A stretch of DNA of 64,000 nucleotides. It comes from an uncultured Eudoraea sp. Lineage in GTDB: Bacteria > Bacteroidota > Bacteroidia > Flavobacteriales > Flavobacteriaceae. The notes under the pieces are model-generated. The model made no database searches. It worked only from the letters and a program-made list of their open reading frames with translations, and had not been told where the DNA came from. Every line of letters begins with the position of its first letter. The stretch's first letter is position 1. Positions 28,664-42,823 of this stretch are shown here, in pieces. The position numbers were made by a program, and so were the translations under genes. The DNA lies in the NCBI GenBank assembly GCA_947258405.1, contig CAMYIE010000001.1, forward strand, positions 1-64,000, written 5' to 3'.

Positions 28664-28737
28664 CAAATATAATTGCGCCTTTGTCACCGATTTATGACTT
28701 TTATCATTGATCGGAGGAAAATAGAATTATAATTTCA
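28664..28737. promoter_or_regulatory. shared divergent promoter/operator of kor-nuo and ferredoxin
   Basis: A 12-bp dyad (TGACTTTTATCA, 28695-28706) lies centrally. Leftward, exactly 23 nt away, the minus strand has TATATTTG (28671-28664), a perfect TAnnTTTG -7 box for korA. Rightward, also exactly 23 nt away, is TAATTTCA (28730-28737), a weaker -7-like box 22 nt before the ferredoxin ATG. The dyad would be centred near -41.5 of both predicted start sites, the classical class II activator position. The same layout occurs before nifJ and the tonB-like gene. Confidence 0.65.
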
Positions 28738-29277: not shown

Positions 29278-29347
29278 TGACAAATATCATATTCTGAGCG
29301 GCGTTAGCCCACTATTTTTATGCACGTTCTCAGGTATGGTTATACCT
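29278..29347 (+). promoter_or_regulatory. nifJ promoter region with dyad activator site and downstream inverted repeat
   Basis: The dyad TGACAAATATCA (29278-29289) is followed after exactly 23 nt by TATTTTTA (29313-29320), one base from TAnnTTTG. The transcript would start near 29325, about 80 nt before the nifJ ATG. A second small inverted repeat, AGGTAT-GGTT-ATACCT (29332-29347), falls just inside the predicted transcript. Confidence 0.6.
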
Positions 29348-41982: not shown

Positions 41983-42012
41983 AACCCTGTAGCTCTAAAT
42001 ACAGGGTTTTTT
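41983..42012 (+). terminator. Rho-independent terminator after the Gfo/Idh/MocA gene
   Basis: AACCCTGT (41983-41990) and ACAGGGTT (42001-42008) form an 8-bp perfect stem with a 10-nt loop, running into a six-T tract (42007-42012). Confidence 0.9.
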
Positions 42013-42037: not shown

Positions 42038-42080
42038 TGACAAATGTCATAGGACAAATTTGGTACTATGGGTAATTTCA
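42038..42080 (+). promoter_or_regulatory. dyad activator site and -7 box upstream of the tonB-like gene
   Basis: TGACAAATGTCA (42038-42049) is a perfect 5-bp-arm dyad. Exactly 23 nt downstream is TAATTTCA (42073-42080), identical to the -7-like box of the ferredoxin promoter. The context ACTGACAAATGTCAT differs from the nifJ site at one of 15 bases. The predicted start site lies about 16 nt before the ATG. Confidence 0.6.
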
Positions 42081-42100: not shown

Positions 42101-42823
42101 ATGCAAGTCAAAAAAAACCCTCAAGCAGATTTGAATAAGAACAGTGGTCTGTACTTCGTCATAGGGCTTGCGATTGTATTATTTGTTACATGGAGGGCCC
42201 TTGAGTATAAGACCTATCCCAAAGATAAAACTTTGGTAGACATGATTGAAGCCGTAGATGAGCTCAAAGAAGACATTCCGATTACTGAACAGATTCGGAC
42301 TACACCTCCGCCTCCACCGCCAGCAGCGCCCGAGGTGATTGAAGTTGTGGAAGACACTGAGGAGATCGAGGAAACTATTATCGAGAGTACCGAAACCAGT
42401 CAGGATGCTGTTGTTGAAGACATTTTGGATGTTAGCGATGTGGAAGCGGCTGAAGATGAAGAAGAGATCATTGTACCCTTTGCGGTTATTGAGAATGTTC
42501 CAGTCTTTCCAGGCTGTGAGAATGCAAAAAACAATGATGAACGTAAGGCTTGTTTCCAGAGGATGGTTCAGGAACATGTTCGAAAACAGTTCACCTATCC
42601 ACCTGCCGCACTTGAATTAGGGATCACTGGCCGTGTCTTTGTTCAATTTTATATCAATACCAAAGGTCAGGTTGAAAGTATCAGGACCAGGGGACCGGAT
42701 AAACTTTTGGAAAAAGAATCACACCGTATAATAGCCTCCCTTCCCGATATGTTGCCTGGGAAGCAAAGGGGGCAAGCGGTTAAAGTACCTTATAGTATAC
42801 CTATTAACTTCATTATTCAGTAG
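42101..42823 (+). CDS. TonB-like energy transducer
   Basis: Inner-membrane-anchored periplasmic protein of 240 residues. A single helix (about 18-31, LYFVIGLAIVLFVTW) follows a short basic N-terminus. Next comes a proline stretch (TTPPPPPPAAPE) and a very acidic linker (80-130, rich in E and D). The C-terminal TonB domain has YPPAALELGITGRVFVQFYI and ends with VPYSIPINFIIQ. It transfers proton-motive force to outer-membrane receptors. Its promoter site matches those of ferredoxin, kor-nuo and nifJ, which ties its control to the respiratory module. Confidence 0.9.
   Translation: MQVKKNPQADLNKNSGLYFVIGLAIVLFVTWRALEYKTYPKDKTLVDMIEAVDELKEDIPITEQIRTTPPPPPPAAPEVIEVVEDTEEIEETIIESTETSQDAVVEDILDVSDVEAAEDEEEIIVPFAVIENVPVFPGCENAKNNDERKACFQRMVQEHVRKQFTYPPAALELGITGRVFVQFYINTKGQVESIRTRGPDKLLEKESHRIIASLPDMLPGKQRGQAVKVPYSIPINFIIQ

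Follow-up and report, generated by a model that had tools for sequence, protein, structure and literature searches.

The window, a stretch of 64,000 nt, harbors a gene for a TonB paralogue of 240 amino acids, which follows a GFO/IDH gene (Table 1). The upstream gene ends in a hairpin with the arms CCCTGTA/TACAGGG and a T-run. Since this putative terminator would close the GFO/IDH gene, tonB probably needs a promoter of its own. Between the hairpin and the start codon lie a dyad, a spacer, and a box of the Bacteroidota type. The dyad was called perfect in the first-pass annotation, which is true of its 5-bp arms (TGACA..TGTCA) and not of its central AA, which is not palindromic. The box had been described as identical to that of the ferredoxin promoter, and this is the case: both read TAATTTCA and both are located 23 nt from their dyad. 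The ferredoxin dyad itself is imperfect. Between 28664 and 28737 of the window, this single dyad stands between two divergent promoters, one for ferredoxin on the forward strand and one for korA/korB/complex I on the reverse strand, each at exactly 23 nt.

Table 1. Features of the tonB promoter, other members of its class in the window, and candidate regulator genes elsewhere in the genome
Feature	Position	Strand	Remark
Hairpin CCCTGTA/TACAGGG with T-run	41985..42012	+	terminator-like, end of upstream GFO/IDH gene; read from sequence
Dyad TGACAAATGTCA	42038..42049	+	predicted Crp/Fnr-family activator operator (TGA-N6-TCA)
Spacer	42050..42072	+	23 nt, fixed length, sequence mostly free
-7 box TAATTTCA	42073..42080	+	Bacteroidota TAnnTTTG type; position rule from PMC9723704
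tonB paralogue	42101..42823	+	240 aa, TonB_C domain, ATG at 42101
Dyad TGACTTTTATCA	28695..28706	.	common to divergent ferredoxin and kor/complex I promoters
-7 box TAATTTCA, ferredoxin promoter	28730..28737	+	23 nt from dyad
-7 box TATATTTG, korA/complex I promoter	28664..28671	-	23 nt from dyad
PFOR (nifJ) promoter	29278..29320	+	TGACAAATATCA 29278-29289, 23 nt, TATTTTTA 29313-29320
FNR-like protein gene	G000:C3:199236-199928 (L001 1486-2181)	- (in L001)	
Response regulator fused to Crp unit	G000:C7:19892-20941 (L002 664-1716)		

The geometry of the tonB promoter can be read against that of Flavobacterium psychrophilum, in which the TAnnTTTG box occupies -12 to -5 (PMC9723704). When this position is carried over, the fixed spacing of 23 nt would place the center of the dyad at -41.5, where the activator sits in Crp/Fnr promoters of class II. 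The dyad also contains the TGA-N6-TCA core that is characteristic of the operators of such promoters. A set of 54 non-redundant tonB promoters was used to derive a footprint, in which the letters of the search pattern are invariant by construction. Outside of this pattern, the first spacer base, a T directly after the dyad, and an A at -2 are invariant in all 54 promoters. Most of the spacer, including its far part, is unconserved in sequence despite its constant length. An upstream (-33) element, searched for as TTTG 17 to 21 nt above the box, occurs in none of the 54.

The arrangement is not restricted to the tonB locus. A scan of the window's own genome for TGAYNNNNRTCA, followed after a gap of 8 to 38 nt by TAnnTTnR, yields 98 matches, 44 of which have a gap of exactly 23 nt; the other spacings take 0 to 5 matches each (approximately 1.8 on average). 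A stricter 43-mer, in which the T after the dyad is required and the spacing is fixed, matches the genome 42 times, compared to 0 times for the reversed pattern. The first-pass annotation had assigned tonB to the ferredoxin/complex I promoter class and proposed a genome-wide motif scan as a check. The assignment holds by the common dyad, spacing, and box, and the class is found throughout the genome. A feature of tonB only is rejected, as there are more than 40 sites. Across a sample of the phylum, it is mainly Flavobacteriaceae, along with some other members of their taxonomic class, in which the pattern clearly exceeds its control.

The tonB product takes on the C-terminal domain of its family, with 54 bits for PF03544 (cut-off 24.6) and 27.6 bits for TIGR01352 (cut-off 27.1), and three ExbD-family genes are present elsewhere in the genome. 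Conservation of the site was followed along the gene family. Among 43 TonB relatives fetched from named genomes, 40 carry the site with its spacing of exactly 23 nt. The fetched relatives were combined with further genes, taken from 60 genomes within the family, in a tree of 112 TonB proteins. This tree, which was built from the protein alone, contains two clades (27 and 32 rows) that spread across Flavobacteriaceae. In these clades, 57 of the 59 members have the site at exactly 23 nt, a count that, like the Fisher value calculated from it, describes the pattern rather than testing it independently, as the clades were named after motif scoring. The two members without a site are from Winogradskyella (L073) and from genome G056 (L082). 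Loss of the motif upstream of orthologous tonB genes had been named beforehand as a refutation of the class assignment, and the motif is kept. The assignment applies to one specific paralogue clade and not to TonB in general: none of the 53 rows outside of the two clades has the site, by which the idea that all TonB genes are alike is rejected. Among these rows is a TonB paralogue of 60% identity from the window's own genome (C3:56815-57516). The clustering of the site on the tree was reached in 0 of 500 label shuffles. The tree needs at least three label changes and may reflect one gain and two losses, so that the clades are not one demonstrated group. Neighboring genes were also compared in the fetched flanks of the 43 loci, where GFO/IDH is found in 22 and the phosphoesterase in 23. 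Hitch-hiking with this neighborhood is rejected, since 17 of the 20 loci with neither of the window's neighbors in the flank carry the site. Several TonB paralogues without the site (L133, L075, L107) have a common upstream block resembling TTTTTTGnCAAATnAATnGTTAnTTTAGC, perhaps a promoter of their own.

The genes behind the 23-nt sites give the class its character. Located directly behind them are the fused cbb3 oxidase ccoNO, the oxygen-independent hemN, and a cytochrome c, and PFOR, ferredoxin, and korA-korB-complex I stand behind such sites as well. Further first genes encode universal stress proteins, thioredoxin, a PPDK-like protein, a flavin reductase, and a small heat-shock-like protein. 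The first gene of a site was taken as the open frame within approximately 300 nt, and single assignments may be wrong because of this simple rule. The respiratory character that had been proposed for the class of tonB is borne out by the cbb3 oxidase, hemN, PFOR, Kor/complex I, and ferredoxin. Together with the stress proteins, these targets make the class look like a low-oxygen regulon. The universal stress proteins, the small heat-shock-like protein, and thioredoxin would suit a Crp/Fnr promoter that answers to general stress, energy state, nitric oxide, or carbon supply instead of low oxygen, with tonB as one of many general response genes, and the non-standard cysteine pattern of the candidate regulator described below points in the same direction. 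This reading is unlikely, though it deserves the most weight among the alternatives, as hemN, ccoNO, PFOR, Kor/complex I, and ferredoxin belong to the typical gene set of low-oxygen life and the cbb3 oxidase is raised by F. psychrophilum under oxygen limitation (PMC9723704).

Four proteins with an HTH_Crp_2 domain are encoded in the genome. Two of them, an FNR-like protein and a fusion of a response regulator with a Crp unit, have the recognition helix TATExxIR. The remaining two, L003 and L004, have different recognition helices and are less likely candidates. The genes next to the FNR-like one encode a universal stress protein and a putative ccoI-type copper ATPase, the latter named from a reading of its translated start. 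Between the fnr-like gene and ccoI (L001 2206-2234), a dyad TGATAATTATCA is located 9 nt from a TACTTTTA box that faces the fnr-like gene, and this close arrangement would fit self-repression. The fnr-like gene of four other genomes (G018, G037, G011, G001) differs in that it is preceded by a 23-nt site, at approximately -67.

The presence of both regulators was assigned by hand from E-values in the 60 genomes of the family. Site numbers rise with the presence of the fusion, as if two signals met on one promoter class: the median number of 23-nt sites per genome is 29 with both regulators, 16 with the fusion only, 9 with the FNR-like protein only, and 1.5 with neither. The tonB site follows the FNR-like gene. 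Judged from the best one or two TonB matches per genome, it is found in 16 of the 37 sampled genomes that have this gene versus 1 of the 23 that do not (Fisher p 8e-4, or 1e-4 when G048 is left out, both values ignoring kinship among the genomes). The excluded genome, a poor assembly (82% complete, 6% contaminated), is the exception to the trend in site numbers: it contains 27 sites and the tonB site, with neither regulator found. Many genomes with the FNR-like gene have no tonB of this kind. In G025, which has 46 sites, the best TonB match is without a site. Because the tonB site goes with the FNR-like protein, the protein encoded beside ccoI, which the first-pass annotation had not named, is the likeliest candidate for the tonB activator.

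It is improbable that the fusion activates tonB instead, in which case the gene would answer a two-component signal rather than an FNR-like sensor. Its recognition helix has the same pattern and the rise in site numbers speaks in its favor, but of the 16 genomes that combine the FNR-like gene with a tonB site, 9 have no fusion, and the 11 genomes that have the fusion and no FNR-like gene are all without a tonB site. In one of these, G056, the clade tonB lacks the site despite 46 other sites. The fusion probably recognizes the same sites, but tonB is not explained by it. Taken singly, the dyad and box words are no more frequent in the window than chance predicts (6 matches versus 6.9 expected, and 3 versus 5.7). 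A chance occurrence of a common short palindrome upstream of tonB is nevertheless close to negligible and is rejected on the spacing peak, the reversed-pattern control, and the orthologue conservation (57/59).

The FNR-like protein, to which the argument returns as preferred activator, combines a cNMP-binding domain with a Crp-type helix-turn-helix (PF00027, PF13545, PF00325), and among solved structures its best relatives are those of FNR. The best NCBIfam model, Fnr (NF008365), scores 115 bits, which is below its cut-off of 228. Cysteines 7, 10, 56, and 109 show no variation (30 of 30), and C7, C10, and C109 align with cysteines of FNR. The set of four Fe-S ligands at the known FNR positions is incomplete, with the third N-terminal cysteine substituted by an asparagine in this protein and C56 being extra. 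It is this departure from the FNR cysteine pattern that leads to the name "FNR-like." In the AlphaFold2 model (mean pLDDT 79), the N-terminus is of low confidence. The protein may sense oxygen; that it does so via an Fe-S cluster is not assured, because the third N-terminal FNR cysteine is missing.

Starting from the site, its geometry, class, conservation, and paralogue specificity and from the co-occurrence with the regulator, we infer how an activator may bind and activate, with oxygen as the likely signal, and what purpose this may have. With good confidence, positions 42038 to 42080 can be regarded as a promoter of the class II Crp/Fnr-dependent kind that serves one specific tonB paralogue, most likely has the FNR-like protein as its activator, and probably responds to low oxygen. 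A dimer of the activator, most likely the FNR-like protein, would bind TGA-N6-TCA centered at -41.5. The bound dimer would substitute for the missing -33 element and recruit RNA polymerase to the -7 box. The same switch would drive the cbb3 oxidase, hemN, PFOR, the Kor/complex I operon, ferredoxin, and stress proteins. As it is shared with low-oxygen genes, this TonB would probably be made at low oxygen, on top of the second TonB copy that has no site. The evidence suggests that one tonB copy is turned on together with low-oxygen genes in this bacterium and in many of its relatives.

Iron uptake for Fe-S enzymes, which had been offered as the purpose of this regulation, is a guess. No TonB-dependent receptor occurs among the annotated first genes of class sites, in the part of the first genes that was scanned, and iron uptake is therefore one possible purpose among several. 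Others could be to supply the oxidase with copper or heme, or to provide more TonB at low proton motive force. No paper that describes the promoter class or its tonB target was found in titles, abstracts, and word counts, in a search that covered mainly papers outside of subscription journals. Judged from sequence, the element appears to be an FNR-type class II promoter that is conserved in front of one particular TonB paralogue; promoters of this kind are known, and the target is unexpected. If this is true, a large family of marine bacteria would couple energy transduction at the outer membrane to its mode of respiration. The rule TGAY-N4-RTCAT, 22 nt, TAnnTT would make the low-oxygen regulon of many Flavobacteriaceae legible from the genome, and the analysis names one candidate regulator gene for the class. 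More tentatively, and with slightly less than even chances, Flavobacteriaceae may possess a TonB paralogue reserved for low oxygen and switched on by an FNR-like sensor, whose cluster would use the displaced cysteine C56, and a two-component Crp fusion may read the same class, so that oxygen and a second signal would converge on a promoter of fixed geometry.

The low-oxygen regulons of the FNR/Anr/FixK2 type in Proteobacteria likewise comprise the cbb3 oxidase, hemN, and universal stress proteins. Beyond these, the present class adds PFOR, Kor/complex I, ferredoxin, and a conserved TonB paralogue; the one paper on an FNR-type regulon that was searched for it, on D. shibae, has no mention of TonB (PMC5398030). 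With FNR of the A. fischeri/E. coli type, the FNR-like protein shares the cNMP-binding and HTH_Crp domains, an N-terminal CxxC, and a central VCxIP cysteine, whereas it lacks the third N-terminal cysteine and has the invariant C56 instead. The TonB paralogue resembles other TonB energy transducers in its TonB_C domain and N-terminal hydrophobic stretch; unlike these in general, its clade has an own promoter of apparent low-oxygen type. In E. coli, class II promoters use a TATAAT box and FNR sites are flanked as TTGAT/ATCAA, which differs from the Bacteroidota -7 box TAnnTTTG and the dyad flank TCAT of the tonB class. The TGA-N6-TCA core, by comparison, is common to class II FNR/CRP promoters of E. 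coli and to the fnr1 promoter of H. seropedicae, a described class II promoter with Fnr centered at -42 (PMC5934665). In these promoters, the center lies near -41.5 to -42 and the site overlaps the place of the upstream promoter element, as is predicted for tonB.
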